In this document: positions 29,008-64,000 of the stretch, piece after piece
How the letters are laid out: the number at the start of each line of letters is the position of its first letter
Position numbering within the stretch: position 1 is the first letter of the stretch
Translations under genes and position numbers: made by a program
NCBI RefSeq assembly: GCF_037976325.1
Contig: NZ_CP150265.1
Span: forward strand, 2,971,501-3,035,500
Origin: Paenibacillus sp. FSL K6-3182
GTDB taxonomy: Bacteria; Bacillota; Bacilli; Paenibacillales; Paenibacillaceae
Length of the DNA stretch: 64,000 bases
Direction of reading: 5' to 3'
Notes under the pieces: generated by a model
What the model saw: only the letters and a program-made list of their open reading frames with translations
Databases searched by the model: none
Told to the model about the DNA's origin: nothing

Positions 29008-29018
29008 TCTGAAAAATA

Positions 29019-29053: not shown

Positions 29054-29076
29054 CTAAGTCAAGGGCGGTGATTGCA

Positions 29077-29958: not shown

Positions 29959-29959
29959 G

Positions 29960-30787
29960 ATGAAGCCACGCATACTGACAGGTCTGAAGGTGCTGTATCT
30001 AGCGTTGCATTTTGTAATCATGGTATTTCCTTTATACTGGATCGTCATTACTTCACTTAAGCCTCAAAAGGATATATTCTCTTTCCCGCTTCAATATTGG
30101 CCAAAGCAATTCACGCTGGATAACTACATCCAGATTTTTAAAATATCGAAATTCCATATTTACATTTTCAACAGCTTATTGGTGGCTGTTCTTGCTGCCG
30201 CGATCGTTATTTTTATAGCGACTCTAAGCGCTTATGTCATGGCCCGCTTTCAGTTTAGAGGGCATAAACAGATTATGATGGCGTTTTTCGTTACGCAAAT
30301 GCTTCCGGGATTTATTGCACTAGCTCCATTGTACTTATTGATGGCGGACTTGGATTTGATTAATTCAAGGATGTCATTAATTATCTGCTACACGGTTATG
30401 CTTATTCCATTCTCAACTATTATGCTTCGAGGCTTTTTCCAACGCGTTCCGAGCAGCTTAGAGGAGGCAGCCATGATTGATGGTTGTTCACGTCTGACGG
30501 CGTTGTTAAGAGTGATCATTCCGGTCATGTTGCCGGGCATTGCTTCAACCTTCATCTTTGCATTTGTACAAAACTGGAATGAGCTGTTTATGGCTGTCAT
30601 GTTTATCGATGACGAGGCATTGAAGACGTTGCCGGTAGCTATGAACTCCTTCGTTATGAAATTTGATGTCGATTGGGGTGCAATGTCGGCTGGAACGGTA
30701 CTATCGGTCATTCCTACCGTCGTATTGTTCGCTTTTGCCCAGCGTTTCATCGTAGAGGGATTAACACAGGGAGCAGAAAAAGGATAA
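29960..30787 (+). CDS. CUT1 ABC transporter permease, MalG/UgpE type
   Basis: About 275 aa. ATG 29960 has AAGGTGG eleven bases upstream; an upstream in-frame GTG at 29948 overlaps the previous gene and is less likely. Seen: MVFPLYWIVITSLKPQKDIF, FTLDNYIQIF, the EAA loop SSLEEAAMIDGCSRLTALLR with IIPVMLPGIA, and QNWNELFMAVMF. This completes the membrane pair of the importer whose binding protein starts at 27679. No ATPase gene is present; a shared MsmX-type ATPase is probable. Confidence 0.92.
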   Translation: MKPRILTGLKVLYLALHFVIMVFPLYWIVITSLKPQKDIFSFPLQYWPKQFTLDNYIQIFKISKFHIYIFNSLLVAVLAAAIVIFIATLSAYVMARFQFRGHKQIMMAFFVTQMLPGFIALAPLYLLMADLDLINSRMSLIICYTVMLIPFSTIMLRGFFQRVPSSLEEAAMIDGCSRLTALLRVIIPVMLPGIASTFIFAFVQNWNELFMAVMFIDDEALKTLPVAMNSFVMKFDVDWGAMSAGTVLSVIPTVVLFAFAQRFIVEGLTQGAEKG

Positions 30788-48633: not shown

Positions 48634-48984
48634 ATGCCAAAAGAAAAGAAAAATGCAAAAAACAGCTCAACAGGCAATCGTAGCGAAGGAAACCGTACAG
48701 GCGGTAACCGTACCGGTGGAAATCGTACGGGAGGAAATCGTACAGGTGGCAACCGCACAGGCGGAAATCGTACTGGAGGTAACCGAACAGGAGGCAATCG
48801 CACAGGCGGCAACCGTACAGGCGGTAATCGCACGGGAGGCAACCGTACTGGTGGAAACCGTACTGGAGGCAACCGTACTGGTGGAAATCGTACCGGAGGC
48901 AACCGTACTGGTGGAAATCGTACCGGAGGAAACCGCACAGGCGGCTATCCTTTAGGTGACACAGCTCCAGGCAACGAAGTTTAA
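48634..48984 (+). CDS. NRTGG pentapeptide-repeat protein
   Basis: 116 aa. A basic N-terminus (MPKEKKNAKNSSTGNRSEG) leads to 17 perfect tandem copies of Asn-Arg-Thr-Gly-Gly, then YPLGDTAPGNEV. ATG 48634 has GAGGAGG about ten bases upstream, so translation is well supported. The repeat is rich in Arg and Gly, has no hydrophobic residues, and should be disordered and very basic (17 Arg). Codon choice varies between copies (AAC/AAT, CGT/CGC, ACA/ACC/ACG/ACT) while the protein is constant, which points to selection on the peptide. RNA, DNA or spore-surface binding are guesses. A terminator follows. Confidence 0.8.
   Translation: MPKEKKNAKNSSTGNRSEGNRTGGNRTGGNRTGGNRTGGNRTGGNRTGGNRTGGNRTGGNRTGGNRTGGNRTGGNRTGGNRTGGNRTGGNRTGGNRTGGNRTGGYPLGDTAPGNEV
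48691..48945 (+). repeat. 15-bp coding tandem repeat, 17 units
   Basis: AACCGTACAGGCGGT-type units, 15 bases each, run 17 times without interruption. Differences are nearly all at third codon positions. Because of the 15-base period, other frames on both strands are also open; those are shadows. Confidence 0.92.
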
Positions 48985-49103: not shown

Positions 49104-49967
49104 TCAACCTTTACCCTTGCGCGTCATTTCAGCCAGCTCATCCCATTGCTTATCGGACACCTCTGCTAAGCTGTTGAATTGCCCTGCACCTTGCAGCCAC
49201 TCGCCGCCATCAATCGTTACAACTTCACCGTTCAAATAATGTGCGAAATCCGAAACTAAATAGGCGGCCAAATTAGCTAGTTCTTCTTTATTGCCAACAC
49301 GTTTTAAGGGGATGCGGCTAATCATCTTCTCTTCAAGCTCAGGAGTGGGAGAGAGGCGAGACCAAGCGCCTTCTGTCGGAAAGGGACCTGGTGCAATCGC
49401 AACTTGGCGAATACCGTAAGGTGCCCATTCAACGGCGAGCGATCTTGTAAGCGCAAGAACGCCAGCTTTTGCAGCAGCGGAAGGTACAACATATCCCGAG
49501 CCGGTAGAAGCATAGGTGGTGACGATGTTCAACATCGTACCGCCTCTTCCTTGTTCAATCCACCGCTTGCCCACTTCCAGAGTCGTATAAAAGGTGCCAT
49601 GTAAAACAATATGTAAGATTGTATCTACTGCTCTTGGAGAGAGCCTCTCGGTAGGACTGATGAAATTTCCAGCAGCGTTGTTGACGAGGATATCGATATG
49701 TCCAAAATGGTTCTCGACGGCTTCAATCAGCTCATGAACTTGTGATGGATCACGAACGTCACAGCTTTTGTAGTAAACGGTGCTGGTGGGCAAGCTCATT
49801 TCTTCAGCCGCTTGCTTCAATACCGCCTCACGGCGGCTGGCAATTGCGAGTTTAGCACCTAACGCAACAAATTTCTCACCCATGGCGCGTCCAAGTCCGG
49901 TCGCTCCTCCCGTTATTAGAACGACCTTTCCTTGCAATAAATCGTTTGTAAATGGTCCCAAATGCAC
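49104..49967 (-). CDS. fadH: Short-chain dehydrogenase, 2,4-dienoyl-CoA reductase type
   Basis: 287 aa. Rossmann motif VVLITGGATGLGRAMGEKFV, NNAAGNF at ~96-102, and an active site spaced as in dienoyl-CoA reductases rather than FabG: Y152 in TTYASTGSG, S163 and K167 in YVVPSAAAKAGV (Tyr, +11 Ser, +15 Lys). The family removes the second double bond in beta-oxidation of unsaturated fatty acids using NADPH. It stands alone, without other fad genes. A fadH-type name follows the Bacillus homologue; the exact substrate is inferred. Confidence 0.85.
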   Translation of the reverse strand: MHLGPFTNDLLQGKVVLITGGATGLGRAMGEKFVALGAKLAIASRREAVLKQAAEEMSLPTSTVYYKSCDVRDPSQVHELIEAVENHFGHIDILVNNAAGNFISPTERLSPRAVDTILHIVLHGTFYTTLEVGKRWIEQGRGGTMLNIVTTYASTGSGYVVPSAAAKAGVLALTRSLAVEWAPYGIRQVAIAPGPFPTEGAWSRLSPTPELEEKMISRIPLKRVGNKEELANLAAYLVSDFAHYLNGEVVTIDGGEWLQGAGQFNSLAEVSDKQWDELAEMTRKGKG

Positions 49968-50055
49968 ACTCTCCTCTGAATCAGAATGATTCTGTCTGTT
50001 TATTCATATCAGGGAGTGGTATAGGTTATGTGCAAAATAAAGAATCATTTAGACA

Positions 50056-51075
50056 CTATCCATTCATAACATATCGACTGAGAAATGCCGCCACTTTTTG
50101 TTCATAGGCTGTTGTATCCGTACCATAGGACATGCCGTGACCAGCACCCTCGGCGATATAAATATCTTTGTCAGCTTTACAAGCTTCATAAAGCCTCCAC
50201 ACCATTTCTGTAGGTACAAAAGTATCGGCGGAACCATGAATAAAGAACATGGGCAGCTTATTTTTATCCAGCTGCTTGATTGCAGATGCCTCCTCGAAGC
50301 TATAACCTGCTTTAAGGCGGGTTAATAAGCTAGTTGCAGGCAAAATCGGAAAAGCAGGCAGCTTGTACATCCGCTTTAGTTGATAAGAGAGCTGATCGGT
50401 AACTGACGTATAGCCGCAGTCCTCCACAATGACCTTGACTTGTTTTGGAACATTTTCACCGCTTACCATCATCACAGTCGCTCCACCCATTGAAATGCCG
50501 TGCAGCACGATTTGCACCGATTCACCAAGTTTCTGTACGACCTCGTCTATCCAAAGGAGATAATCCTTCCGATCTGGCCAGCCGAAGCCGATGTAATCGC
50601 CTTCACTATCGCCATGACCTCGATCATCAGGCATGAGCACGTTATACCCAAGCTTGTCATAATAAAATTTAGCGAAGCTGCCCATATCTTTCCCTTGCGA
50701 GGAATAGCCGTGTGCAAGAATGACGGTTTTGGACGTCAAAGTTTTGGCTTCAAGGTAATAGCCAACCAAGGAGAGACCGTCACTTGAAGTAAGATGCCAA
50801 ATTTCATAAGCTTGTTTTTCTATCCATTCTACCCCTATAGCCTCTACCGGTGTTGGACCAGATTCATCTGCTAATGCAATGGCAGCTTGATCATCCATTT
50901 CCTTTTCTCCGTGAATTTGCGCTAAATCCTGATTATTGCTTAAAAATGCTTTGGAGTTTCGTTTGATTGCCACGTAATAGAAATAATAACTAATCACGGT
51001 AAGTAAACCGATAAAAAGGACCGCCAAACCTCCTATTCCAAGTACAATTCTGCTCATCAGCATCGTCATAGTCAT
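50056..51075 (-). CDS. Membrane-anchored alpha/beta hydrolase
   Basis: 339 aa. An N-terminal membrane anchor (IVLGIGGLAVLFIGLLTVIS) and a ~50-residue linker precede an alpha/beta hydrolase domain: VILAHGYSSQGKDMGSFAKF for the oxyanion hole, DDRGHGDSEG, nucleophile S195 in LHGISMGGATV, acid in FIHGSADTFVP, and His in AEGAGHGMSYG. It resembles YfhR/BEM46-type hydrolases. The first ATG (51075) is four bases after GGAGGA; an in-frame ATG at 51069 has better spacing. The substrate is unknown. Confidence 0.85.
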   Translation of the reverse strand: MTMTMLMSRIVLGIGGLAVLFIGLLTVISYYFYYVAIKRNSKAFLSNNQDLAQIHGEKEMDDQAAIALADESGPTPVEAIGVEWIEKQAYEIWHLTSSDGLSLVGYYLEAKTLTSKTVILAHGYSSQGKDMGSFAKFYYDKLGYNVLMPDDRGHGDSEGDYIGFGWPDRKDYLLWIDEVVQKLGESVQIVLHGISMGGATVMMVSGENVPKQVKVIVEDCGYTSVTDQLSYQLKRMYKLPAFPILPATSLLTRLKAGYSFEEASAIKQLDKNKLPMFFIHGSADTFVPTEMVWRLYEACKADKDIYIAEGAGHGMSYGTDTTAYEQKVAAFLSRYVMNG

Positions 51076-51380
51076 TCATTCCTCCAAGTAGGCGGTTATG
51101 TGTGAATTTGTGCTATGTCTCTATCATACTGAAGAAAGCTGCTAAAAGGGAGCGGATTGTTGAAGTGATGGTTTGATTGTGGAGATTATAAAGGTATTGC
51201 CAGCTTCTTTATGGAATCAATCGTTATTATTGTTTCTTTTCTAATGAAAATCATTCCTTGTCTGCAATATTTCTAGTCTAAGCTCATTAGCTTACCTTTA
51301 TCAATGATGTTCATTACCAAAAAATAGTATATACTAGGCTCATATCGTACATATTCGGGTTTATGAGGGGTATAAGAGGC
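51076..51380. other. Divergent interval between hydrolase and amidase
   Basis: 305 bases. A TATACT at 51330-51335 could be the -10 for the amidase gene but has no clear -35. Otherwise AT-rich, with no ORF, RNA or hairpin that I can support. Confidence 0.35.
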
Positions 51381-52832
51381 ATGGAAATCGTAGAGGCAAC
51401 CATTTCGTCCATTCAAGCCGCTTTGGAATCTGGCGAGATCACATCTCGCGAGCTTGTACTATTTTATTTTGACCGAATTGCAGCGCATGATAAAGATGGA
51501 CTCACGATAAATTCGGTGCTTGAGCTTAACACCGATGCTTTATTTATAGCTTCTGCATTAGACAGCGAACGAGCTGTCCAAGGCCCAAGAGGTCCGCTTC
51601 ACGGCATCCCCATCATGCTCAAGGATAATATTAATACAGGGGATAACATGCATACGAGCGCTGGCTCGCTTGCGCTTGCCAATTCCTATGCGGGAGAAGA
51701 TGCTTTTATTGTAAAAAGGCTGCGCGAAGCGGGGGGCATTATATTAGGGAAAGTGAATATGACGGAGTTTGCTAACTTTATGACAGATGGAATGCCGTCT
51801 GGCTATAGCTCGCGGGGCGGCCAAGTTCTTAATCCTTACAACATATCAACGCCGACTGGGGGATCAAGCGCTGGTTCAGGCGTCGCGGTGGCTTGTAATT
51901 TTTGTATGGCTTCGATTGGCACGGAAACCTCAGGATCGATCTTAAATCCAGGCAATTTAAGCTCAACCGTTGGCATTAAGCCGACTGTTGGACTGGTGAG
52001 CCGATCAGGCATATTGCCACTCTCGAACTCACAGGATACTGCGGGACCAATGGCAAGAACCGTAACGGATGCAGTGCTCGTATTAAACGCTATAACGGAG
52101 CATGATGACAGGGATGCTGCAATGGGTGCGGGGTACTTTAAAAAACATAAGGATTATCGTGTTTTCCTTGATCCGAAAGGTCTTGGGGGTGCACGAATTG
52201 GCATTCCTAGAGATTATTTTTTTGAGGAATTAACGGACGAGCAGCTAGCCATATTTAACGACGCAGTAGAGGTGATGAGAAAACAAGGCGCTGTCATCAT
52301 TGACCCGGCTGATGTAAGAACTGCTAGGCAAATCGTTTATTCATCGGTAGTGCTGAATGAATTCAAATCCTCGATAAACGCTTATTTGTCCAAGCTGCCT
52401 CCAAACGGCAAAATTCGCTCGCTCAAGGACATTATTGCTTTTAATAACGAGCATCCGGTTGAAACCTTGAAGTATGGACAGTCTACTCTGCTGCTAGCAG
52501 AAACGACGACTTCAGGTACGCAGACGGAGCTTCCATATCTTCGAGATCGGATTGCAGATCTCCGTTTATGCAAGGAAGAGGGAATAGATGCGACGATGAA
52601 GGAGCATCAGCTTGACGCGCTGCTTTTTCCTGCTGACTTTGGAGCAAGGATTACATCGCGTGCAGGTTATCCATCGATTGTCGTCCCAGCTGGCTATACT
52701 TCAAAAGGAGTGCCGTTTGGTGTGACATTCGCTGCGAGAGCTTTCGAGGAGCCGATGCTCATTAAACTCGCTTATGCATACGAGCAGCACAGCATGGTGA
52801 GGCGTCCGCCTTCATTAAAGAGCTTTATTTAA
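51381..52832 (+). CDS. Amidase signature family protein
   Basis: 483 aa. The Ser-cisSer-Lys triad is visible: K81 in GIPIMLKDNINTGD, cis-Ser in TPTGGSSAGSGVAV near 162, and S186 in ETSGSILNPG. Usual amidase layout: TSRELVLFYFDRIAA at the N-terminus, ILGKVNMTEFANFM, KPTVGLVSRSGILPLSNSQD, and GYPSIVVPAGYTSKGVPFGV at the end. It is a free-standing amidase rather than GatA, as gatB and gatC are absent. ATG 51381 is chosen over 51363, which lies in the ribosome-binding region (GAGGGG). The substrate is unknown. Confidence 0.87.
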   Translation: MEIVEATISSIQAALESGEITSRELVLFYFDRIAAHDKDGLTINSVLELNTDALFIASALDSERAVQGPRGPLHGIPIMLKDNINTGDNMHTSAGSLALANSYAGEDAFIVKRLREAGGIILGKVNMTEFANFMTDGMPSGYSSRGGQVLNPYNISTPTGGSSAGSGVAVACNFCMASIGTETSGSILNPGNLSSTVGIKPTVGLVSRSGILPLSNSQDTAGPMARTVTDAVLVLNAITEHDDRDAAMGAGYFKKHKDYRVFLDPKGLGGARIGIPRDYFFEELTDEQLAIFNDAVEVMRKQGAVIIDPADVRTARQIVYSSVVLNEFKSSINAYLSKLPPNGKIRSLKDIIAFNNEHPVETLKYGQSTLLLAETTTSGTQTELPYLRDRIADLRLCKEEGIDATMKEHQLDALLFPADFGARITSRAGYPSIVVPAGYTSKGVPFGVTFAARAFEEPMLIKLAYAYEQHSMVRRPPSLKSFI

Positions 52833-53009
52833 TGGGATAGGACGAGATGCCGCATCTCGACTATTATACGTTTGACGGAGATTTGACTCAGAGCTTTTTA
52901 AGCGCGTAACAAGCAAAAACGCCTTCGGCTTCCTTTAGACGCTGTGTAGCTTTGACGGTGAAATATAAGATAAGAATGAGAAAATGATATGCTTTCCTAT
53001 ATTTTTAAA

Positions 53010-53042
53010 AAATCCTCTCGACTGTTGGAGTCGGGAGGATTT
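53010..53042 (-). terminator. Terminator of the DUF2536-like gene
   Basis: On the minus strand AAATCCTCCCGAC (53042-53030) pairs with GTCGAGAGGATTT (53022-53010, one G-U), followed by a T-rich tract to 53006. It is 17 bases past the stop at 53059. Confidence 0.8.
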
Positions 53043-53058
53043 GTATGCCTTTAAAGCG

Positions 53059-53268
53059 CTATTTCTTCGCTTTAAAGTGAACAACCGCACTATAAAGCAT
53101 CTTTTCGATTTTAGGATTAAAAACAGCATGATGGCTGACGTGGAACACTTCCAGCAGCAAGCCTTTATTATTTTCAATTTGCTGATCAATCTTGCGCTCT
53201 AGCGTCTTCAAGTCATAGGCTTCAAAAAATTCGATCTTATTTTCAATTAAATCTAAACGAAAGTCCAT
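53059..53268 (-). CDS. DUF2536 family protein (YrzA-like)
   Basis: 69 aa. The pattern MDFRLDLIENKIEFFEAYDL, a helical Lys/Glu-rich centre, NNKGLLLEVFHVSHHAV and a C-terminal YSAVVHFKAKK matches the small Bacillales family DUF2536. Function unknown. It starts at ATG behind GGAGA, with a TATAAT on the minus strand at 53312-53307, about 40 bases upstream, giving its own promoter after the sugar porter gene. Confidence 0.65.
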   Translation of the reverse strand: MDFRLDLIENKIEFFEAYDLKTLERKIDQQIENNKGLLLEVFHVSHHAVFNPKIEKMLYSAVVHFKAKK

Positions 53269-53320
53269 TTGTTTATCTCCTATAAATAGATTTATAACCT
53301 AAACCCATTATACAGAGATA

Positions 53321-54694
53321 TTACTTCGCCCACAAAGCTTCAATTTCTTCAAGTGATTTTCCTTTGGTTTCCGGTACAACACGCCATGTAAACAAGAAGG
53401 CGAGCAAGGCCATGCCACCATAAATCCAGAATGTAGCGGCAGGTCCTGCGGAGCTAAGCATAGGCGGGAACGACTGTGAAACGAGATAATCCGCTGCCCA
53501 GAGCGCCATTGCAGCAATAGCCGTCGCTTTTCCGCGAATACGGTTAGGAAAGATCTCAGACATGATGACCCATACGACCGGTCCAAGCGAAATAGCAAAT
53601 GAAGCCACATACAATAAAATGAAGATAAGCACGAGTGGACCTGCTGCATGTCCCGTTTGAAAAGCGATGCCTATAACAATCAAACAAATTGTCATAGAAG
53701 CCGAACCAACGAGCAGAAGCGCTTTGCGTCCTACTTTATCAATGAGCCATAGAGCAACGAGGGTGAACAATAAGTTGATAAAGCCGACCAAAATCGTTTG
53801 GATCAATGAAGCGTTTGTTCCTGCGCCAGTTGCTTTGAAAATTTCTGGGGCATAATACATGACGGCGTTGATGCCTGTCACCTGTTGGAGCACAGCAAGT
53901 CCAACTCCTACAATTAAAGCAATTCGAAGCCCTGGAGAGAATAGCTGCCGAATCGAACCGCTCTCTTGCTCGAAAGAATGCTTAATATCGATCACTTCTT
54001 TTTTGGCGAGCTCTTCGCCGTGAATACGCAATAAGATCGGAAGAGCTGCCGCTGCGCGCCTTTGTTTGATCAGCCATCTTGGGCTCTCGGGCACAAAAAA
54101 TAGCAAAATCAAAAATAACAAACCAGGTATAGCGCCAACTCCGAACATCCAGCGCCAAGCGGAGGCGATGCCCCATGCTTCGTCACCTGAGCCGGAAATC
54201 CATAGGTTTACGAAATAAGTAAGAAAGATGCCTGTAACGATGGCGAGTTGGTTAAGTGCAACAAGTCTGCCGCGATATTTTGCAGGTGCAATTTCGGCAT
54301 TGTAAAGCGGGCATAACGTAGAGGTAATTCCGATTCCGATTCCACCAATAATCCGAGCCACAATAAACGCGGAAAAAGTATCCGGAACAGCTGAGCCAAT
54401 CGAGCTGATAATAAATAGAGTCGCGGCAGCAATAAGAACCTTTTTACGTCCGAAGCGGTCTCCCAAAATACCAGACATAGCCGCGCCGACAATACAGCCA
54501 ATAATTAAGCTCGATACAGCCCATCCCACTTGTAGCTTAGATAAGTCGAATCGATCCTCCATAAAACCGACAGCACCTGATACGACTGCTGTATCGAATC
54601 CGAATAATAATCCGCCAAGAGCGGAAACAATGGAAACAAGCGTCACAAATTTCATGCTTACTTGTTCATTTTTGTTAGTAATCGGCATTTCCAT
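53321..54694 (-). CDS. Sugar porter family MFS transporter (XylE/AraE type)
   Basis: 457 aa, 12 membrane segments. Sugar porter signatures: GGLLFGFDTAVVSGA, GDRFGRKKVL, RIIGGIGIGITSTLCPLYNA with EIAPAKYRGRLV, PESPRWLI, QQVTGINAVMYYAPEIFK, DKVGRKALLL and PETKGKSLEEIE. Proton-sugar symport of xylose, arabinose, galactose or glucose is likely; the exact sugar cannot be told. It starts behind GAGGAG. A cre-like site lies just after its -10. It is downstream of the three-component sensor on the same strand but has its own promoter. Confidence 0.92.
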   Translation of the reverse strand: MEMPITNKNEQVSMKFVTLVSIVSALGGLLFGFDTAVVSGAVGFMEDRFDLSKLQVGWAVSSLIIGCIVGAAMSGILGDRFGRKKVLIAAATLFIISSIGSAVPDTFSAFIVARIIGGIGIGITSTLCPLYNAEIAPAKYRGRLVALNQLAIVTGIFLTYFVNLWISGSGDEAWGIASAWRWMFGVGAIPGLLFLILLFFVPESPRWLIKQRRAAAALPILLRIHGEELAKKEVIDIKHSFEQESGSIRQLFSPGLRIALIVGVGLAVLQQVTGINAVMYYAPEIFKATGAGTNASLIQTILVGFINLLFTLVALWLIDKVGRKALLLVGSASMTICLIVIGIAFQTGHAAGPLVLIFILLYVASFAISLGPVVWVIMSEIFPNRIRGKATAIAAMALWAADYLVSQSFPPMLSSAGPAATFWIYGGMALLAFLFTWRVVPETKGKSLEEIEALWAK

Positions 54695-54730
54695 TTCCGT
54701 TTCTCCTCTCTGTCAAAAACCTTTCCTGCG

Positions 54731-54750
54731 TGAAAACGAACTTTATTATA
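54731..54750 (-). promoter_or_regulatory. -10 element and cre-like site for the sugar porter gene
   Basis: On the minus strand TATAAT lies at 54750-54745, about 50 bases before the start. Immediately downstream, TGAAAACGAACTTT (plus strand, 54731-54744) fits the relaxed cre consensus WTGNAANCGNWNNCW at most positions but lacks the final C. A CcpA roadblock there would fit a sugar transporter. A short hairpin (GAGCG/CGCTC then T5) precedes the -10 at about 54757-54780. Confidence 0.4.
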
Positions 54751-54881
54751 GCATGCAAAAAGAGCGAATCCGCTCGTAAAAACCTGCATTAATGAGTGTT
54801 GTTCCCGCATTTATTTTAGACATTGCAAGCATAGGGAAACGAATAAAGAGAACTAGCATTTTGTTGTCATCCCAGCACAAA

Positions 54882-54910
54882 AAAGTCCATGTCGTTGCAG
54901 CATGGACTTT
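54882..54910. terminator. Terminator of the three-component operon
   Basis: AAAGTCCATG at 54882-54891 pairs perfectly with CATGGACTTT at 54901-54910. On the minus strand it is followed by T6, fitting the response regulator gene that ends at 54928. Confidence 0.85.
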
Positions 54911-54927
54911 ACTTTTTTGCTCATTTT

Positions 54928-56262
54928 TTATCCCCGGTAGTCGGAGGGGGGGACACCGGTCACTTTTTTAAAGACACGGCTAAAATAGTTTGGATCATTA
55001 TAACCGACCTCGAAGCAAACTTCCTTTAAACTTAGTTTTCCAGTTGCCATTAACGCTTTCGCCTTTTCGATACGAAGGGCAGTGACATATTCGATAAAGG
55101 TTGTGCCTACTTGCTGCTTAAATATTTTACTGAAATAGTGTGGGTTTAGATGAACGGATTCGGCTACTTCTTCGAGTGAGAGGTCCTTTGTATAGTTGTC
55201 CTGAATAAAACGTTGTGCACGGTCAAGCACGGATTGGGTTTGCTGCTCCCGCTGCTCTCGAATACGCTGCATTGCTGAGATAACATACGCTTCAGGTATA
55301 GCTTCCACATGTTCATGCTGCTTGTTATTACGATTCAGTGAAGGGACTGCACCATGTATCAATTCATCAAAGTGGCATATCTTGCCGCATTGCTCATAAT
55401 AATTGGAGGCAAATACAGCCTCAAAATAGGATTTGCGCAAACCCTCAACACCCGAGCGCGTTTTTCCGATTCCGACTAAGATGTCAACCTCTAGCTGACG
55501 TGCTGCGATCGTGCATAGTTCTTCACCTAAAGCGGTTCCGGCTGCCTTCCAATCTGCGTCCACAACAGATTTATCATGATTGATGAAGATAGCCATATGG
55601 CGATCAATTAAGGAGCTTACAATACTATTCGTTAAAGATGATTTGATAAAGCTTCTAATCGTATCGTAAACTTTTTGCTTGGGATTAGCTTTGACATGCT
55701 CGGGAAATGCGATCACGATCACACAGCCTTGTTCTAGTGGAAAGCTGAGCCATTCTGATAATTGCTCGATATCGGTATTTGTAACATGATCGACCATAAA
55801 CATCATAGCGAGTTCATTTTCTGCTAAAGGCATTAATTGAGAAACTTTATGCCGCAGCTCTAGTTCATCCGAGCGTTTCCTCTTCTCCAGCTCGAGTTCC
55901 TGTATGAGCTGCTGAAGCGTATGTACGATTTGCTCGCGTTTGGCAGGCTTGACTAAATATTCCTTCACTCCGAGAGAAAGGGCTTCTTTGGCATAAGCAA
56001 AATAATCATAAGCGGTCACCATGACGAATTTGGCATCCGGCAAGGTATGCTTGATTTCGCGGATCGCTTCTAAACCTTGAATGCCGGGCATATTGACATC
56101 CATAAGTATGATATGGGGGCGATATTCCTCTGCTTTTTCTATCGCGACACGTCCATTCTCGGCATGGATTATTTGAAAGGTATTCGGAAGCATTCGTTCA
56201 ATAATCAATTCCAAGCCTTCCCGCTCAAGTGCTTCATCATCCGCGATTAACAGTCGGTACAT
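54928..56262 (-). CDS. AraC-type response regulator (YesN family)
   Basis: 444 aa. Receiver: LLIADDEALEREGLELIIER, phosphoacceptor D55 in ILMDVNMPGIQGL, FVMVTAYDYFAYAKEAL and EYLVKPAKREQI. A middle region of ~200 residues links to a C-terminal AraC domain: RAQRFIQDNYTKDLSLEEVA, ESVHLNPHYFSKIFKQQVG and the second helix-turn-helix LKEVCFEVGYNDPNYFSRVF. The frame opens at 56334, but ATG 56262 is the family start; it overlaps the kinase gene by 26 bases. Expected to activate sugar transport or hydrolase genes nearby. Confidence 0.93.
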   Translation of the reverse strand: MYRLLIADDEALEREGLELIIERMLPNTFQIIHAENGRVAIEKAEEYRPHIILMDVNMPGIQGLEAIREIKHTLPDAKFVMVTAYDYFAYAKEALSLGVKEYLVKPAKREQIVHTLQQLIQELELEKRKRSDELELRHKVSQLMPLAENELAMMFMVDHVTNTDIEQLSEWLSFPLEQGCVIVIAFPEHVKANPKQKVYDTIRSFIKSSLTNSIVSSLIDRHMAIFINHDKSVVDADWKAAGTALGEELCTIAARQLEVDILVGIGKTRSGVEGLRKSYFEAVFASNYYEQCGKICHFDELIHGAVPSLNRNNKQHEHVEAIPEAYVISAMQRIREQREQQTQSVLDRAQRFIQDNYTKDLSLEEVAESVHLNPHYFSKIFKQQVGTTFIEYVTALRIEKAKALMATGKLSLKEVCFEVGYNDPNYFSRVFKKVTGVPPSDYRG

Positions 56263-57688
56263 GTATGTTTTCACCGTCCTCTCTAACAGGTATTCGGATT
56301 GTGACTGTCGTTCCTTTACCCCGTTCGCTTTCAATATCGACTAATCCATGTAGACCATAAAATAGTTGGAGGCGCTTAAACACATTTTTTGTGCCAAGGC
56401 CTGTTGATTGTTCGGTGAATGCGCCAGCTTCCATTCGGAGCATCGAATCTCGAATTTCTTCAGTCATACCGCTGCCATTGTCGGAAATAGAGATACGTAC
56501 ATGATGTTGATCATGCTTTATTTCAAGGCGGATCTTCGCTCCATTCTCCATACGTTCAATGCCATGAACAAAGGCGTTTTCTACGATGGGTTGAAGTGTG
56601 AGCGCAGGGATGTGATATGACAATGCAGATGGGTCGATATCCTTCACCAGCTGAATGCGTTCGCGAAAGCGTGCTTGTTGAATGGTGAAGTACTCCTCTA
56701 CATGTGCTACCTCATCTCTGAGCGTGACCGCATGCTCCAGATTGCGCAAGTTATATCTCAGTAAATTGGACATCGAAATAATGAGATCACTTGTTTTCTC
56801 GGCTCCTTCAATGAGCGCTAGCTTGGATAATACATTGAGCGTATTAAAGAGAAAATGCGGATTAATTTGGCTTTGCAGCGCTTGCAGCTCTAATTCCTTA
56901 ACGAGTCGATCCTTCTCCAGGCTTTCTTTATCCCGCTCCATCAATTCGAGGAGGTCGCTCGACATTTGCTCGAATGCGCCTGATAATACGCCAAGCTCAT
57001 CCTTGGCTTGCAGCTCGTTTGAGCTTTGCTTTAGATGTCCCTTGGAGATCTGCTTCGCACGTGAGACAAGACTGCTTACAGGTCCAGTAATGCTGCGTGA
57101 AATCCAAATGGCAAGTAAAATGCTCAGCAGGGTGTTCGTTATGAAGACGGCGGCACCGAGCAAATACATGCGTTTATTTTCTGCTTGAATCTGCTCATAT
57201 ACAGGTTCATAAATGTTTAACTCCAATTCAACCAGCTGCTGGCTGTCCTCTTGTATGAAGCTTGCTGTCCTTTCCGCATTCTCGTATTGAGTGAGCGACA
57301 CCTTCGATCTTTCGGCAGAAGCTGCAGTGAAAGCGTCTTGCTGCTGCTCCAAAAAAGTATCTAACAGATGAACGTAGCTAGTAATAGTGGAGGAAGATAT
57401 GGAAACATTCGACTTTTCTTGGAGCAGCAAGCGCAGATCCTGAAGTTCCACTCGACTATGATCGTATCGCTCTTTATTGCTGTCGTCTGGATTAAGTAAA
57501 TAGCTATACAGCGTACTTAAGTTGTTATCTACAATCTTGGAGGACTGGTTGTACAAAAGGATACGATCGATCATTTGATTATAGCTTTGCTGAACCATCT
57601 TTCCACTTTGAAATAAAAAGAACGTAACCAAATTAATAAGGAGAACGAGTAATGGGATGAAAATGAGCAGCTTAGTCCGAATGGTCAT
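56237..57688 (-). CDS. LytS/YesM-type sensor histidine kinase
   Basis: 483 aa. Membrane segments at ~8-27 and ~177-197 enclose a helical extracellular domain of ~150 residues; HAMP follows (SRAKQISKGHLKQSSNELQA). The His_kinase domain has H278 in LQSQINPHFLFNTLNVLSKL; ATPase motifs are LQPIVENAFVHGIE, ISDNGSGMTEE and STGLGTKNVFKRLQ. The ATG overlaps the stop of the sugar-binding protein, so signal capture and kinase are co-translated. The layout is the same as XylFII-LytS-YesN. Confidence 0.93.
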   Translation of the reverse strand: MTIRTKLLIFIPLLVLLINLVTFFLFQSGKMVQQSYNQMIDRILLYNQSSKIVDNNLSTLYSYLLNPDDSNKERYDHSRVELQDLRLLLQEKSNVSISSSTITSYVHLLDTFLEQQQDAFTAASAERSKVSLTQYENAERTASFIQEDSQQLVELELNIYEPVYEQIQAENKRMYLLGAAVFITNTLLSILLAIWISRSITGPVSSLVSRAKQISKGHLKQSSNELQAKDELGVLSGAFEQMSSDLLELMERDKESLEKDRLVKELELQALQSQINPHFLFNTLNVLSKLALIEGAEKTSDLIISMSNLLRYNLRNLEHAVTLRDEVAHVEEYFTIQQARFRERIQLVKDIDPSALSYHIPALTLQPIVENAFVHGIERMENGAKIRLEIKHDQHHVRISISDNGSGMTEEIRDSMLRMEAGAFTEQSTGLGTKNVFKRLQLFYGLHGLVDIESERGKGTTVTIRIPVREDGENIHVPTVNRG

Positions 57689-58680
57689 GGGCTAGTTTCT
57701 CCATTTTCTTGAACGAAGGGCTTCTGGCTTTGTACCGATATTTTCGTAAAATGCTGCACAGGAAGCTCCTTGCCATGGAGGTAATCGTTCAACTGCGATA
57801 CGGCTTCATTGCCCATGTCGTAAGGCTGCTGGACAATGGTTGAATGGATGATTCCACTGAGAATAAGCTCCAGAGTTTCATCGAGCGCGTCAAATGCAAA
57901 AATTTGCAGGCCTTTTGGCCGAATGCGTTCAGTTGCCTCTGCGATGCCGATCGCATCGAGTGCGCTTAATCCGACCATTACATTCAGCTGTGGATAGTGC
58001 TGAAGCAGTTCCTCTGTTTCACCTGATGCTTGGAGGCGTGAAATGTTTGAGGAGCGCACCTCGACAAGATTCAGCTCGGGGTAACGTGAAATAACCTCTC
58101 GAAATCCAGCAAGCCGCAGCTGCTGATTGGGGGCTTGCTCGTTTCCGATTAAAGCGGCGATTTGCCCATGGTTTCCAGCCGCTTCGGCAACCAATTCACC
58201 CATAACTTTGCCTGCATCGAAATTGTTTGTGCCGACATAAGAGAGCCTGCGGCTGTTCGGAGCATCTGTATCAATCGTTAAGACAGGAATGCCATAGCTA
58301 ATCGCTTTATTAATTAATCCGATATACTGCGGGTCGTTAAGCCCCTGTACGAGCAGCGCATCAGCTTTGGCTGCAATAGCTTTCTCCAGCAGCTTCATTT
58401 GCTCCGCGGGATTAATGCGAAACGGACCTGTATATTCAAGCACCATCCCAAATTCAACCGCTGCATCTTTTGCACCTCGTTCAATTGATCGCCAATATGG
58501 ATTATCGATTTCTTGGGAGATGAGGACAATGTGATAAGGAGGTTTCTCGCTTACCTCGGTTGAGAGAATGGGCTGCAGCAGATCCTTTATCCGAAGCGTG
58601 GAGAGAAAGAAGCTTAGCAGAAGGCTGGAAAATACAATAAACAGAATGGCAATGCCTATGTTCCATTTACGATTAGACAT
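57685..58680 (-). CDS. Membrane-anchored sugar-binding sensor protein (Periplas_BP_4 / XylFII-like)
   Basis: 331 aa. An uncleaved N-terminal anchor (IAILFIVFSSLLLSFFLSTL) is followed by a ribose-type binding domain: YHIVLISQEIDNPYWRSIER, DALLVQGLNDPQYIGLINKA, GIPVLTIDTDAPNSRR, YVGTNNFDAGKVMGELVAEA, IAALIGNEQAPNQQLRLAGF and IIHSTIVQQPYDMGNEAV. There is no lipobox. Known relatives bind xylose and dimerise with the kinase sensor domain instead of feeding a transporter. First gene of the sensor operon, divergent from the fused permease. Confidence 0.88.
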   Translation of the reverse strand: MSNRKWNIGIAILFIVFSSLLLSFFLSTLRIKDLLQPILSTEVSEKPPYHIVLISQEIDNPYWRSIERGAKDAAVEFGMVLEYTGPFRINPAEQMKLLEKAIAAKADALLVQGLNDPQYIGLINKAISYGIPVLTIDTDAPNSRRLSYVGTNNFDAGKVMGELVAEAAGNHGQIAALIGNEQAPNQQLRLAGFREVISRYPELNLVEVRSSNISRLQASGETEELLQHYPQLNVMVGLSALDAIGIAEATERIRPKGLQIFAFDALDETLELILSGIIHSTIVQQPYDMGNEAVSQLNDYLHGKELPVQHFTKISVQSQKPFVQENGETSP

Positions 58681-58838
58681 TATACAACTCCCTTACTGCG
58701 TCCATTTATATCGGATTATTATACAAGAACAGGCGAATAATCAAAAGCTGCAGCGAAAATGAGCGATATTGAAGCTATACAACATACAACTAAATCATTA
58801 TAATTTAGTAAAATTACGGAAAAAGAAAGGGGTTTATT

Positions 58839-60575
58839 ATGGAGCATCAACCGCCTAATGCCCAAAGCAATCTACATAACCAACTACATGATCCAGACAG
58901 TCTGCCTCAGAGAATATGGAAGTACAAGCTGCATTACTTGATCGTCATTCCCGCTCTTATGCTCATATTGATTTTTAAGCTGCTTCCATTTGCTAACGGT
59001 ATAATTTTATCGTTTGTCGACTACAAAGTTTTTGTTGGCCTATTTGAGAGTTCGTGGGTAGGCTTTAATCATTTTGCCCAATTGTTTAACGATGAGAACT
59101 TCCAAAGGGTAATTGTAAATACATTTGTTATCAAAACGGGTTATACACTGGCTAGCGGTTGTATCGCATTCCTTCTGGCGCTTGCTCTGAGCAATATTAG
59201 TTACAAGTGGTTGAGAGGGCTGTTCTCGTCTTTATTTCTTATTCCTTTTTTCATTCCTTCTATTGTTTTTGTGTATATTTTCATTTATATACTGTCGATA
59301 AGCACATCTCCCTTTCTAACCTCGGGGACGCTGATTTTGGGTGATGAGACATTATTTCGACCGATCATTGTATTCGTTGAAGTGTTAAAAACATGCGGTA
59401 TTCCGATCATCATCGCGCTTGCAGCTATAGCCTCGAAGCATGCTTCATTGAACCGTCAAGAAACGGGGCTTGCAGGCATCGGGAATAGCTACCTTGTAAT
59501 GAATGTGATTCCAGCACTGAAAGCGGTAGCCGCTTTTATGGTGCTGCAGCTGTCTGCCATCATGTCCACGGACTATGAGCTCATTAGAAGCTTGCTGAAT
59601 CCCTTGGTATCGAAGACAGGAGAGACGCTCGACGCTTATATTTTTCAACTAGGTTTTTTGATGATGAACGTAAGTCCTTCCGCTGCTGCGGGCATTTTTC
59701 AGTATGCGGTTCAACTGCTCTTTACGATCATCGCTTATTTCATTGTAAAAAGACTGTTTTTAAAGCAATTATTCAGTATTCACACAGGTGCAGCTGACAT
59801 TAAAACAACAAATATTGGACGTAGCATAATTGGGATTGTGACAGCTTGCTTATATTCAATCGTTGTCATTTTTTTACTGTATATGCTGTTCATCTATCCG
59901 TTTACTGGAACCGGAGAAGCAAGGCAATCGGTGTGGAGCTTCATATCGTTCTGGAACGTTTTTTCTTATTCAGTCGTTAACTTTGTTGCTGTAATTATAT
60001 TTTTATTGATGACTGTCACACTGGCTTATCCGCTGACTGTCAAACATTTGCCAGGGCGCAGCTGGTATAAGTTGTTTCTGCTTATCGTCATTTCGATGGG
60101 AAGCGGGATGATTAATGAGTACCTATTCGTTCGGAGCCTAGAAATGGTCAATACGATTATTCCGCAAATGATATTCGGCTTTTTTAATTTAGCGGCGGTT
60201 TTTGTTCTCAAAAGTATTTTCAACAGTAGACACGCCGACTTAAAGACTGAGGCCGAGCTATCGGGAAAAGGGGAACTGCATACGTTTTTCACTCTGTTTA
60301 TCCCAAAAATATGGAAGCCACTGCTTGCGCTTGGCGTGCTCCATTTCGTCGTATTATGGAACTCATACTTACCAGCGTTAATTTATATTTCTAATATGGA
60401 GCTGCAAACACCGATAATGAAATTAGTACAGTTAGCAAGCTCAGGAGGAGAAATGGACAGTGCATTAATGCTGCAGCTTGGAGCATTGACAAGCCTGCCG
60501 TCAGTTATGTTATTTCTTATATTCCGGAGATGGCTGACTTCCGAGATATTTATCGGTCAGATCAGAAAGCTTTAG
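58839..60575 (+). CDS. Fused two-domain CUT1-like ABC permease with degenerate EAA loops
   Basis: 578 aa in one uninterrupted frame, with ATG behind AAAGGGG. Residues ~1-300 match a LplB/UgpA-type permease (YLIVIPALMLILIFKLLPFA, WVGFNHFAQLF); residues ~330-578 match a MalG/YtcP-type permease (HFVVLWNSYLPALIYI, MKLVQLASSGG). The EAA loop of the first half reads QETGLAGIGNSYLVMNVIPA (207-226), and of the second KTEAELSGKGELHTFFTLFI (469-491 region), so EAA...DGA is eroded in both. No ATPase or secreted binding-protein gene is adjacent. It may still transport, or may serve as a membrane partner of the divergent sugar sensor. Confidence 0.8.
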   Translation: MEHQPPNAQSNLHNQLHDPDSLPQRIWKYKLHYLIVIPALMLILIFKLLPFANGIILSFVDYKVFVGLFESSWVGFNHFAQLFNDENFQRVIVNTFVIKTGYTLASGCIAFLLALALSNISYKWLRGLFSSLFLIPFFIPSIVFVYIFIYILSISTSPFLTSGTLILGDETLFRPIIVFVEVLKTCGIPIIIALAAIASKHASLNRQETGLAGIGNSYLVMNVIPALKAVAAFMVLQLSAIMSTDYELIRSLLNPLVSKTGETLDAYIFQLGFLMMNVSPSAAAGIFQYAVQLLFTIIAYFIVKRLFLKQLFSIHTGAADIKTTNIGRSIIGIVTACLYSIVVIFLLYMLFIYPFTGTGEARQSVWSFISFWNVFSYSVVNFVAVIIFLLMTVTLAYPLTVKHLPGRSWYKLFLLIVISMGSGMINEYLFVRSLEMVNTIIPQMIFGFFNLAAVFVLKSIFNSRHADLKTEAELSGKGELHTFFTLFIPKIWKPLLALGVLHFVVLWNSYLPALIYISNMELQTPIMKLVQLASSGGEMDSALMLQLGALTSLPSVMLFLIFRRWLTSEIFIGQIRKL

Positions 60576-60584
60576 CATTATATT

Positions 60585-60620
60585 TGGAGGGAGCTTGGCT
60601 AAGGCCAGCTTCCTTTTTTG
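60585..60620 (+). terminator. Terminator after the fused permease gene
   Basis: GGAGGGAGCTTGGC and GGCCAGCTTCC form a stem with a three-base loop, followed by T6 at 60614-60619. It separates the permease transcript from the GH2 gene. Confidence 0.8.
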
Positions 60621-60657
60621 ATTTCAATGAGGATTCACTATATATTAGAGTAACTTA

Positions 60658-60669
60658 ATAGTTAACTAT
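60658..60669 (+). promoter_or_regulatory. 12-bp palindrome upstream of the GH2 gene
   Basis: ATAGTTAACTAT is a perfect palindrome that overlaps a TATAAT at 60669-60674. It is a possible operator. AraC-type regulators usually use direct repeats, so the link to the nearby response regulator is uncertain. Confidence 0.35.
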
Positions 60670-60703
60670 ATAATAGGTTTATCACGGGTTTTCAAAGTAA
60701 TAG

Positions 60704-60733
60704 TTGACAAACAAGTTAATGAAGACGTATTCT
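60704..60733 (+). promoter_or_regulatory. Promoter of the GH2 gene
   Basis: TTGACA at 60704-60709, an 18-base spacer, and TATTCT at 60728-60733 (4/6), about 95 bases before the start codon at 60829. Confidence 0.5.
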
Positions 60734-60828
60734 TGTTACGAAATGGTTGTTATTTCGGTTTATTATTAACTTTTTAATTAATCTTATGAACGTCATCAAA
60801 ATATCAAAGAGAGGCAGTGTGATTAATA

Positions 60829-63585
60829 ATGTCTTTAAATACGGTACATGCATCACAAGTGAACATCCCTCGAGCTGAGTATCCTCGGCCAGATTGGCAG
60901 CGCTCGGAATGGTTGAATTTGAATGGAGCATGGTCCTTTGAATTTGATCATGAGAATCGCGGCATCGGTGCAGATTGGCATAAATCGAAGGGGCAATCCT
61001 TAAAGTCGGAAATCACTGTTCCTTTCTCCTGGTCAAGCCCGTTGTCGGGAATCGGAAGCAATGATAAAGGCATCGCTTGGTACGATAAGGAAGTAGATTG
61101 GGCACCAGAGCTAGCTGATGCCCGAGTAATCCTTCGCTTTGGCGCGGTCGATTTTAAGTCCGACGTATGGGTAAATGGGATCTCCATTGGTTCGCATGAA
61201 GGCGGATATGGCCATTTCGAATTTGATGTAACAGACGTATGGTCAATCGACAGCACAAACTCGATTACGGTTCGTGTTGAAGATTTTGATCATTCATTCC
61301 AAGGCCGTGGCAAGCAAGGTTATGGGGAAATTCGCGGCATTTGGCAGCCCGTATGGCTGGAGGCTCGTCCTCAAAACTATGTACAGGATTCGAAGTTTAA
61401 TACAAAAATGGACGGTACTATACAAGTTACGACTAGAGTGACAGCAAGCCGCGCAGGTCATGCTCAGCTTTCCTTCTTGTTTGCAGAAGGTGCTGTATCA
61501 CATCAATTCGAAGCAGAGCTGACAGAAGGAGCCAATACGATCAGCACTTCATTTGTAGTGGCAGATCCTAAGCTATGGAGTCCAGAATCTCCTTTCTTAT
61601 ATGAAGGCGAAGTTTCCCTGTCCAGCAATGGCCAGTCGGATGTTATAAGCACTTATTTCGGTATTCGTGAAATTTCAACTGCACTTGTAGGCGATCGGAA
61701 TTATCGCTGGATTATGTTGAATGGCAAACCTGTTTATTTGAATGGAACGTTGGATCAATCCTTCCATCCAACCGGATTTTTCACGTACCCGTCCGATCAA
61801 GAAATGCATGATGAAATTTTCCTTTTGAAACGTTTAGGCTTGAACTTTGTTCGGATTCACATTAAGCCGGAAGAGCCGCGCAAGCTTTACTGGGCTGACA
61901 AACTTGGAATTCTCGTAATGGAGGATATGCCATGCTTCTGGGGGGACCCGGATGAGCAGGCACGGCTTGCTTACGAGAGTGAAGCGCGTGAAATTATTGA
62001 TCGTGACTACAATCACCCGTCAATTTTCTCTTGGGTTATGTTTAATGAGACATGGGGCTTGAAAACGGAAAGTGAATCCGCTTCGCTTACAACAGATGCA
62101 TCACATCCGCAAAATTATTTGCCGCAAACGCAGGAGTGGGTTCGTTCCATCTATCGTTGGGCCAAACAGGTTGATCCAACCCGTATAGTTGAAGATAACT
62201 CACCATGTAACTATGATCATGTGGAGTCTGATATTAACACTTGGCATTTCTACATTAATGGCTACAATGAGCTACGAAACCATGTAACAGAGGTCGTTGA
62301 TAAAACGTTCGTAGGTTCTACCTTTAACTATACTGCGGGCAATGTACAATCAGATGCACCATTAATGAATAGCGAATGCGGCAATGTGTGGGGGATCGAA
62401 GGCGGAGCAGGAGATAGTGACTTAGCCTGGCATTACCGCTATATGATGAATGAATTCCGCCGTCATGATAAAATGTGCGGTTTCGTATTTACAGAATTCC
62501 GAGATGTTGTAAATGAGTTTAACGGTTATTACCGTTTGGACGGCACCGACAAGCATTTTGGCTACGAGTGGTTCGTTCCCGGCATGACGATCGCAGATTT
62601 GCACTCGCCAGATTTTATCGTTATTGATGCACCTCCTTGTCAAACGCTGGATACAGGGGCACAGGTTACATTGGAGCTTTTGCGTTCCAGCTTCTCGGAT
62701 CGTTATCATGGTCAAGCGCTTCAGCTGGCGTGGGAGCTGTCGTATGATCATTTTGGTGTACGTACTGTCGCACAATCAGGACACGAAATCATTGACTGGA
62801 ACGGATTTGGCGTGAGTGCATTGCAGCCGCTTTTCTTGAAAATGCCTCAGCAGGATGCGGTTGCGGTAATTGCAGTACGTCTCTTGTCTTCCGATGGCAA
62901 AACGATTACACGCAACTTCGTTACATTCGACGTTCGTAGCGGTCAAACGAATGGAAAATACGAGGTTGACGGTCAAACGATAAGCGTGCCGGTTGCAAGC
63001 TTCACCGATAGCGAGTGGCCGCATAGCTGGAATTCGTTGCAGAATCAGAAAGTGAATGGCGGAATTGCAGGACAATTTACTTATGATGTACAGCTGCCAT
63101 CCATTTCGGAGCAAACGATGATTTATGATATTGAACTGTTTTTTGAAGCGGGCTCTAAGCGTCTGCTAAAACGTGATCTTGAGGAAAGCATTCAGAAAAA
63201 GCTGGACATTTCCTTTATGCATGGTGCGCTGTCTGATCCAGAGTACAACATAAATTCTTATTTTATGACGGATTCGGATCGCCATGAAGCTAAGCTAAAT
63301 GTTCTCATTGATGGACAGCTGGTTGATACTATTGTGTTGACAGATGATCCAGCGGATAGCCGTGGCGTTCTGTCTTGGCACTATCAAGCGGTTTCTAACA
63401 AGCTGGAGGATGCAGGCTCATACGGCTATCTCTGCAAGGTCATTTTGCCTAGTGCGCTGACTGCTAAGCTGAACCAAAACCGCAGCTTTAAGCTTCAGTT
63501 CGAAGCTGAACAAGGCGGTTTGACGCTATACGGACGCAATGCTGGTCGTTATCCGATCGATATTATCGTTCACCATAGAGGTTAA
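60829..63585 (+). CDS. Glycoside hydrolase family 2 protein
   Basis: 918 aa, beta-galactosidase/glucuronidase/mannosidase clan. Order: sugar-binding jelly roll (~1-190; RPDWQRSEWLNLNGAWSFEF, VWVNGISIGSHEGGY, GEIRGIWQPVWLEA), immunoglobulin-like domain (~190-290; PKLWSPESPFLYEG), TIM barrel (~290-600; NGTLDQSFHPTGFF). The acid/base is probably E407 in VMFNETWG and the nucleophile E516 in NSECGNVWG. A ~300-residue C-terminal region completes it. There is no signal peptide, so it acts in the cytosol on imported oligosaccharides. The ribosome-binding site is AAAGAGAGG. It probably answers to the adjacent sugar sensor. Confidence 0.9.
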   Translation: MSLNTVHASQVNIPRAEYPRPDWQRSEWLNLNGAWSFEFDHENRGIGADWHKSKGQSLKSEITVPFSWSSPLSGIGSNDKGIAWYDKEVDWAPELADARVILRFGAVDFKSDVWVNGISIGSHEGGYGHFEFDVTDVWSIDSTNSITVRVEDFDHSFQGRGKQGYGEIRGIWQPVWLEARPQNYVQDSKFNTKMDGTIQVTTRVTASRAGHAQLSFLFAEGAVSHQFEAELTEGANTISTSFVVADPKLWSPESPFLYEGEVSLSSNGQSDVISTYFGIREISTALVGDRNYRWIMLNGKPVYLNGTLDQSFHPTGFFTYPSDQEMHDEIFLLKRLGLNFVRIHIKPEEPRKLYWADKLGILVMEDMPCFWGDPDEQARLAYESEAREIIDRDYNHPSIFSWVMFNETWGLKTESESASLTTDASHPQNYLPQTQEWVRSIYRWAKQVDPTRIVEDNSPCNYDHVESDINTWHFYINGYNELRNHVTEVVDKTFVGSTFNYTAGNVQSDAPLMNSECGNVWGIEGGAGDSDLAWHYRYMMNEFRRHDKMCGFVFTEFRDVVNEFNGYYRLDGTDKHFGYEWFVPGMTIADLHSPDFIVIDAPPCQTLDTGAQVTLELLRSSFSDRYHGQALQLAWELSYDHFGVRTVAQSGHEIIDWNGFGVSALQPLFLKMPQQDAVAVIAVRLLSSDGKTITRNFVTFDVRSGQTNGKYEVDGQTISVPVASFTDSEWPHSWNSLQNQKVNGGIAGQFTYDVQLPSISEQTMIYDIELFFEAGSKRLLKRDLEESIQKKLDISFMHGALSDPEYNINSYFMTDSDRHEAKLNVLIDGQLVDTIVLTDDPADSRGVLSWHYQAVSNKLEDAGSYGYLCKVILPSALTAKLNQNRSFKLQFEAEQGGLTLYGRNAGRYPIDIIVHHRG

Positions 63586-63730
63586 TTCATGAAGTGTAAT
63601 CCGTTATTTGCTACTCCGTCCTTGATGATTTATGATTAGAAAAGTTACGAATTTGTTAACGGATCTGTTGAAAATAATCGAATGGGATCTTGTAAAATAG
63701 AGGGAGTAGACAAAGAGGGGGTACATATAG

Positions 63731-63850
63731 ATGAACGTTCCTGCAGGTGTTTGGATTTTTTCGGGTATTATCGTTGTATTGCTCACATGGCTGACACTTT
63801 GGGTTACAAAAAAAGCCTATTCGAAAAAATGGGATGAATCGGATCATTAG
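63731..63850 (+). CDS. 39-residue single-span membrane protein
   Basis: Too short for most gene finders. MNVPAGVWIFSGIIVVLLTW forms one membrane helix; the end KAYSKKWDESDH is charged and cytosolic. ATG 63731 has GAGGGGG ten bases upstream, and a terminator follows 45 bases after the stop, so it is a complete transcription unit. The layout resembles the small Bacillales protein YtzI (helix followed by KAY), but this is a weak resemblance. Function unknown. Confidence 0.65.
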   Translation: MNVPAGVWIFSGIIVVLLTWLTLWVTKKAYSKKWDESDH

Positions 63851-63894
63851 TTGTAATGATAAACTAAACTTTAGATAAGAAGAGATAGAAGGAG

Positions 63895-63930
63895 AGACTC
63901 TTTAGCTACGCGGCTGAAGAGTCTTTTTTA
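63895..63930 (+). terminator. Terminator after the small membrane protein gene
   Basis: AGACTCTTTAGC at 63895-63906 pairs with GCTGAAGAGTCT at 63913-63924 (one G-U) with a six-base loop, followed by T6. Confidence 0.85.
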
Positions 63931-64000
63931 TGTAAGCAGGGTACTCTGTTAAACTAACAAAGTAAGATTTAAAAGCCACATAGTGGATGAGCAAGAAGCT

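Follow-up and report, generated by a model that had tools for sequence, protein, structure and literature searches.

A three-component sugar sensor, its probable MFS porter target and a neighbouring fused permease without EAA motifs in Paenibacillus sp. FSL K6-3182

We analysed a 64,000-nucleotide stretch (the window; 2971501-3035500 of contig NZ_CP150265.1) of the single-contig, 7.56-Mb genome of Paenibacillus sp. FSL K6-3182. Among named relatives, Paenibacillus sp. FSL A5-0031 and Bacillus sp. FJAT-28004 are the closest. An initial annotation had located genes for a sugar-binding protein (SBP), a histidine kinase, a response regulator and a fused ATP-binding cassette (ABC) permease, all of which are present as placed. 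The first three genes (the trio) probably constitute an independent sugar sensor for an adjoining XylE-like MFS porter, with a presumably ATPase-uncoupled permease beside it. The genes and the two permease loops that carry this reading are the following.

53321..54694, minus strand: XylE-like MFS sugar porter, presumed target of the sensor (TIGR00879, 451.5 bits, cut-off 237.8)
54928..56262, minus strand: YesN-type response regulator with AraC helix-turn-helix (HTH), sensor component 3 (Response_reg, GGDEF_2, HTH_18/HTH_AraC)
56237..57688, minus strand: LytS/YesM-type histidine kinase, sensor component 2 (His_kinase, HATPase_c, HAMP)
57685..58680, minus strand: membrane-anchored SBP, sensor component 1 (331 aa, Peripla_BP_4, E 5e-61)
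58839..60575, plus strand: single-chain fused AlgM1-AlgM2 / LplB-YtcP-like permease homologue, an independent orphan gene (578 aa)
59430..59489, plus strand: loop 1 of the permease, residues 198-217, without EAA (alignment)
60222..60320, plus strand: loop 2 of the permease, residues 462-494, EAA replaced by a conserved GrGE...PKxWKPL motif (alignment)

The evidence supports the trio as a three-component sugar sensor of the type known from GanPST and XylFII-LytS-YesN. Domain matches, gene adjacency and solved relatives all bear out the XylFII-LytS-YesN plan proposed initially. The gene of the anchored SBP adjoins those of the LytS-type kinase, which it overlaps by 4 nt, and of the AraC-type regulator, and the trio is related in sequence to solved members of three-component sensors. 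The best solved relatives of the SBP, whose N-terminus is a hydrophobic anchor without a lipobox cysteine as judged by eye, are 6gq0 (235 bits) and then 5xsj (168 bits), which we take to be GanP of the system of GanS and XylFII, respectively. Those of the kinase are 6swj and 6swk (46-47% identity), titled as the GanS kinase domain. Structure prediction builds the extracytoplasmic part of the kinase from long helices with pLDDT mostly 80-90, in a model with a whole-model pTM of only 0.38, and a search with this model did not return LytS-N among the 50 matches listed. The regulator reading frame (54928-56334) is open from a TTG at 56334, and we favour the ATG at 56262 as its start codon.

The importers controlled by known three-component systems are of the ABC type. 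GanPST from Geobacillus stearothermophilus and XylFII-LytS-YesN from Clostridium beijerinckii comprise the same anchored Peripla_BP_4 SBP, LytS-type kinase and AraC-type regulator, whereas the transporter conserved next to the present trio is an MFS sugar porter. According to an excerpt of one study, the SBP of such systems binds the outer domain of the kinase, and the system controls transporter genes, namely those of carbohydrate importers with a second binding protein (PMC10384115).

The SBP has 28 matches, in 25 of 51 genomes of the genus, and we inspected the surroundings of 23; the other five (L063-L065, L067, L068) share 37-43% identity. Kinase and MFS genes lie beside the SBP gene in 23/23 of these sensor loci, and a regulator match in 22/23. 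The porter matches E. coli XylE (4ja3) at E 5e-119 and the XylE model NF007484 at 496 bits, below that model's cut-off of 608. We aligned the gap between the regulator and MFS genes for 22 loci, leaving out the locus with no regulator match (L095). Four elements emerged in the following order.

54882..54910, no strand assigned: terminator-like hairpin in the regulator/MFS gap, with an 11-pair stem and a T tail
54850..54867, minus strand: element E1, core AAAATGCTA, a candidate regulator site ahead of the MFS gene (promoter alignment)
54783..54816, minus strand: element E2 (ATGC.GGAACAACAC..AT.A.TG), a second candidate regulator site ahead of the MFS gene (alignment of the 22 loci)
54745..54750, minus strand: putative extended -10 box (TGNTATAAT) assigned to the MFS promoter and retained in the intergenic alignment

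The hairpin and its T run are largely kept in the alignment. TGCTA of E1 is present in 22/22 loci, and E2 aligns across all of them, if more weakly in a few (e.g., L104 and L105). The E2 core has a single match in the 7.56-Mb genome at up to two mismatches, and the reversed control pattern has none. Matrix searches of 53000-64000, with the maxima from eight mononucleotide shuffles as background, gave best other scores of 10.5 bits at 63806 and 7.6 at 60569 for E1 (shuffle maxima 5.5-13.6) and of -6.5 for E2 (shuffle maxima -5.9 to 4.2), and hence no site above the shuffle range at the permease, SBP or GH2 glycosidase promoters in that interval. A consensus for CcpA-type sites found no match in the window. 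Because the MFS gene accompanies the sensor in 23/23 loci and E1 and E2 were found at its promoter alone (both within 53000-64000, the E2 core genome-wide), we infer that it is activated by the regulator through these putative sites. The XylE-like porter is the stable partner of the trio and, as gene order and promoter conservation suggest, most likely under its control. Mechanistically, the sugar-loaded, membrane-anchored SBP would engage the extracytoplasmic domain of the kinase, which would then phosphorylate the AraC-type regulator, and the latter would activate the adjoining porter gene via the conserved sites E1 and E2.

The fused permease belongs to a family of single-chain variants of the known CUT1 permeases. 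Pfam returns no match for the window protein and NCBIfam only a weak, UgpE-like one, and the family profile matches AlgM1 with its N-terminal half (E 4e-48) and AlgM2 with its C-terminal half (E 2.5e-14). The predicted fold model and homology agree on the transmembrane fold of type I importers, composed of two halves. A search that scored the 7996 candidates sharing most words retrieved 93 family proteins, including that of the window. Our alignment comprised 85 single proteins of 500-600 aa with the window protein among them, whereas P0063, P0083, P0086, P0087 and P0090-P0093 stayed outside this set because of their length or distance. BPD_transp_1 of Pfam matches only 6/85 members, and it matches both control permeases of one locus (L002). 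One copy of the gene (E<=1e-70) occurs in 37/394 genomes of the taxonomic family, spread over 5/19 genera, and in 20/51 genomes of the genus. The fusion of both CUT1 permease halves in one 578-aa protein, as initially described, thus holds family-wide, and we rejected a fusion created by sequencing error: 85 members are single chains, and the gene is one uninterrupted copy, free of internal stops, in 36/37 genomes. At the locus of Paenibacillus sedimenti (L039, 10001-10537), the alignment to the permease covers just the N-terminal 179 residues, and this copy may be broken.

Searches further afield returned little. A tblastn search against plasmids gave five records, none above 27% identity and four annotated as ordinary permease genes. 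A phylum search with the distant relative P0097, named from a Clostridiales metagenome-assembled genome, matched the window's genome alone among 398 genomes, and a Pfam scan of the distant relatives P0089, P0094, P0097 and P0099 found no match. A title- and abstract-level literature search, with subscription papers mostly beyond reach, found no named family of fused LplB-YtcP or EAA-less permeases. The family differs from the AlgM1-AlgM2 / LplB-YtcP permeases, to which both halves are homologous and whose fold they share, in being one chain, in the loss of the EAA motifs and in having no adjoining SBP_bac_1-type gene in the window. The FbpB-type fused permeases (9j4r, Thermus thermophilus) show 14% identity and were solved as FbpBC with its ATPase, according to the entry title; unlike the CUT1-derived fused permease, FbpB is an iron importer and not of the sugar class.

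In CUT1 permeases, the two loops with the EAA motif dock on the ATPase. As controls we used LplB- and YtcP-type permeases from the same genome and about equally diverged (27 of 30 control loci; L131, L135 and L138 were not parsed). The pattern E[AS]x(2-3)DG is present in 26/27 LplB-type and 26/27 YtcP-type controls and in 0/85 fused proteins in either loop, so that the EAA motif expected in each half of a CUT1 permease is missing from both; the one occurrence in P0064, at residue 2, lies outside either loop. Loop 1, measured between I197 and A226, has 8-32 residues in the family versus 28 in 27/27 controls, and is 20 residues or shorter in 22/85 members. Loop 2 counts 26 residues between N462 and P489 in 81/85 members, and G476, G478, E479, P489, W492, K493 and P494 are near-invariant. 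Eight distant relatives (P0089, P0091, P0092, P0094-P0097, P0099) have short loops in both positions, with 12-13 residues in loop 1 and 12-17 in loop 2, and two more (P0088, P0090) have a short loop 1 (8 and 10 residues) next to a loop 2 of 23 and 26. The same-genome comparison confirms the motif loss that the initial annotation had noticed in both loops and extends it to the whole family, although "degenerate" describes the loops unequally: neither the sequence nor the length of loop 1 is constrained across the family, and loop 2 is rewritten yet conserved.

Since loop 1 has lost its motif and length constraint and loop 2 is rewritten, we doubt ordinary ATPase coupling; because loop 2 is conserved, some cytoplasmic contact would remain. 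The permease is most likely no longer a standard ATPase-driven importer, as far as its loops can tell. It descends from a CUT1 (AlgM1-AlgM2 / LplB-YtcP-like) pair and, by its fold model, keeps the type I importer fold, while loop 1 has lost the EAA motif and the length constraint, and loop 2 has been rewritten. It would serve an ATPase-uncoupled role, for example as a sensor, as a gate or in facilitated passage, and this role would have nothing to do with the trio. Judged from sequence, we consider the chances of such a role nearly even. Somewhat short of even, in our view, is the broader proposal of a separate family of CUT1-derived membrane proteins, typified by the fused protein, each a single chain uncoupled from ATPases and recruited as receptor, gate or passive conduit. 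Loop 1 of its members lacks the motif and is frequently much shortened, and loop 2 is rewritten in the Paenibacillaceae and halved in the distant relatives.

The strongest competing explanation, unlikely but worth serious attention, is a residual ABC importer with an unlinked SBP and a shared MsmX-type ATPase, docking mainly via the rewritten loop 2. The conservation of loop 2 and its constant length speak for it, as does the supply of ATPases: the genome holds 61 LplB-type matches (E<1e-49) against three UgpC/MsmX-type ATPases above cut-off (eight at E<=1e-60). With so few ATPases for so many permeases, the lack of a local ATPase gene is uninformative, and we set it aside as evidence. In B. 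subtilis, MsmX serves at least six importers, according to an excerpt of one source (PMC11466899). The neighbourhood was surveyed at 40 permease loci, made up of 34 from the 37 family genomes that carry the gene, plus L030, L032, L033, L034, L038 and L040 (G044, G329, G330 and the partially aligning L039 lie outside this set). At L078 (3155-8683), LplB-like and YtcP-like genes and one for a 575-aa lipoprotein-like protein that Pfam does not match lie directly ahead of the fused permease gene in the same orientation and may point to a partner. At L032, the fused permease gene is followed by an SBP_bac_1 protein and a pair of BPD_transp_1 permeases. Against a residual importer stand the complete absence of the EAA-DG pattern, a loop 1 that in 22 members is judged too short for the usual coupling helix, and the eight distant relatives in which both loops are short. 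No conserved binding-protein neighbour was seen in the 40 loci either: among the nine neighbouring window proteins scanned (49104-63585) there is no SBP_bac_1 gene linked as in CUT1 systems, and the other 39 loci were scanned in part. The initial remark that neither an ATPase nor a lipoprotein binding protein lies nearby stands for the binding protein, in the span scanned, and carries no weight for the ATPase.

The genes around the permease offer a further candidate partner. Gene order at this chromosomal site, common to many genomes of the genus, runs amidase, MFS-regulator-kinase-SBP, permease, GH2, M48/ankyrin protein, and the last-but-one of these adjoins the permease, the trio or both in some genomes.

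60829..63585, plus strand: GH2 glycosidase

An uptake or sensing role of the permease for a GH2 product is improbable. In its favour, GH2 lies directly downstream in 6 of the 20 genus genomes with the permease, and both occur together in 9/51 genomes versus 5.1 expected (Fisher p 0.019, uncorrected for relatedness). However, 11 of these 20 genomes lack this GH2 at E<=1e-200, three of the nine genomes with both carry it elsewhere (G001, G012, G025), and it adjoins the trio without the permease in four trio loci. Outside the genus, no locus among those examined has a member of the GH2 cluster beside the permease. Nor did the 40 loci yield another conserved operon partner, as no neighbour cluster is shared by more than 12. 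The upstream co-oriented clusters F7 and F8 recur in eight loci, all from one other genus, which we read as local synteny, and many of the scanned neighbours come from disparate families (RCC1-like, M6 peptidase, FdhD and GNAT among them).

The idea that the permease docks the SBP of the trio, forming a transporter-derived sensor complex, is very improbable. The two genes do lie side by side in divergent orientation in the window and in four relatives, and permease-derived sensors such as BceB and UhpC represent a known principle. In BceAB-S and UhpBC, a permease-like protein feeds the kinase, and permease and kinase are conserved partners there, unlike the fused permease and the trio kinase. 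The frequency with which the fused permease lies beside the trio proved low, at 5/40 permease loci (window, L023, L024, L028, L069). Across the 51 genus genomes, 14 of 20 with the permease have no SBP and 19 of 25 with the SBP have no permease, leaving six with both versus 9.8 expected (two-sided p 0.045 towards avoidance, uncorrected for relatedness). The shared site itself can hold either module alone, namely the trio without the permease (L089-L094, L096) or the permease without the trio (L025-L027, L029, L035, L070, L071). CUT1-type permeases pair with SBP_bac_1-type binding proteins, and the SBP of the trio is of the Peripla_BP_4 class. With the MFS porter as the constant partner of the trio, the proposed complex is unsupported, though not disproved. 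We read the trio and the permease as independent, because each occurs without the other at the shared site and their co-occurrence falls below expectation, and we rejected them as a unit on the same grounds together with the low adjacency. Their adjacency is apparently shared residence at one chromosomal site, with separate gains or losses.

The fused permease is under purifying selection, with dN/dS of 0.21, 0.11 and 0.10 in comparisons with L023, L024 and L025, respectively; loop 1 alone gives 0.66, 0.48 and 0.51, from few sites. That it is a decaying remnant of a permease pair, as the lost EAA motifs and the copy aligning over only 179 residues might suggest, is hardly credible given these dN/dS values of 0.10-0.21, a gene without internal stop in 36/37 genomes, and near-invariant residues that persist across members whose identity to the window protein ranges from 33 to 87%.

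Several observations weigh against our reading of an independent sensor and an uncoupled permease. Loop 1 of the window protein itself has the usual 28 residues, as in 14/85 members. Loop 2, by keeping its length and several near-invariant residues, could still contact an ATPase or a different partner in the cytoplasm. In five genomes including that of the window, the permease and SBP genes diverge from neighbouring positions, and shared regulation is possible there. The E1-like match at 60569 is weak and falls inside the shuffle range. E1 and E2 were derived by aligning one homologous promoter, which is no proof of binding. The matrix would miss strongly diverged sites, and the whole-genome search covered the E2 core only.

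Elsewhere in the window, the ORF listing contains a CUT1 cluster of ordinary appearance (27679-30787), made up of a binding protein and a pair of permeases with the loops EAADMDGA and EAAMIDGC; no ATPase gene directly adjoins this cluster. A tandem repeat of 15/30 bases (48676-48944) encodes an Asn-Arg-Thr-Gly-Gly repeat ORF of 116 aa (48634-48984), and other frames of this region also hold long open ORFs.

With an MFS porter tied to it and a candidate operator defined, the trio can serve as a clean model of a three-component sensor. If the loops of the fused permease mean what they suggest, many species would have kept the membrane half of an ABC importer without the interface to its engine. 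An uncoupled permease, if true, would present a type I importer fold at work without ABC ATPases and would allow one to test whether type I permeases can function in their absence.

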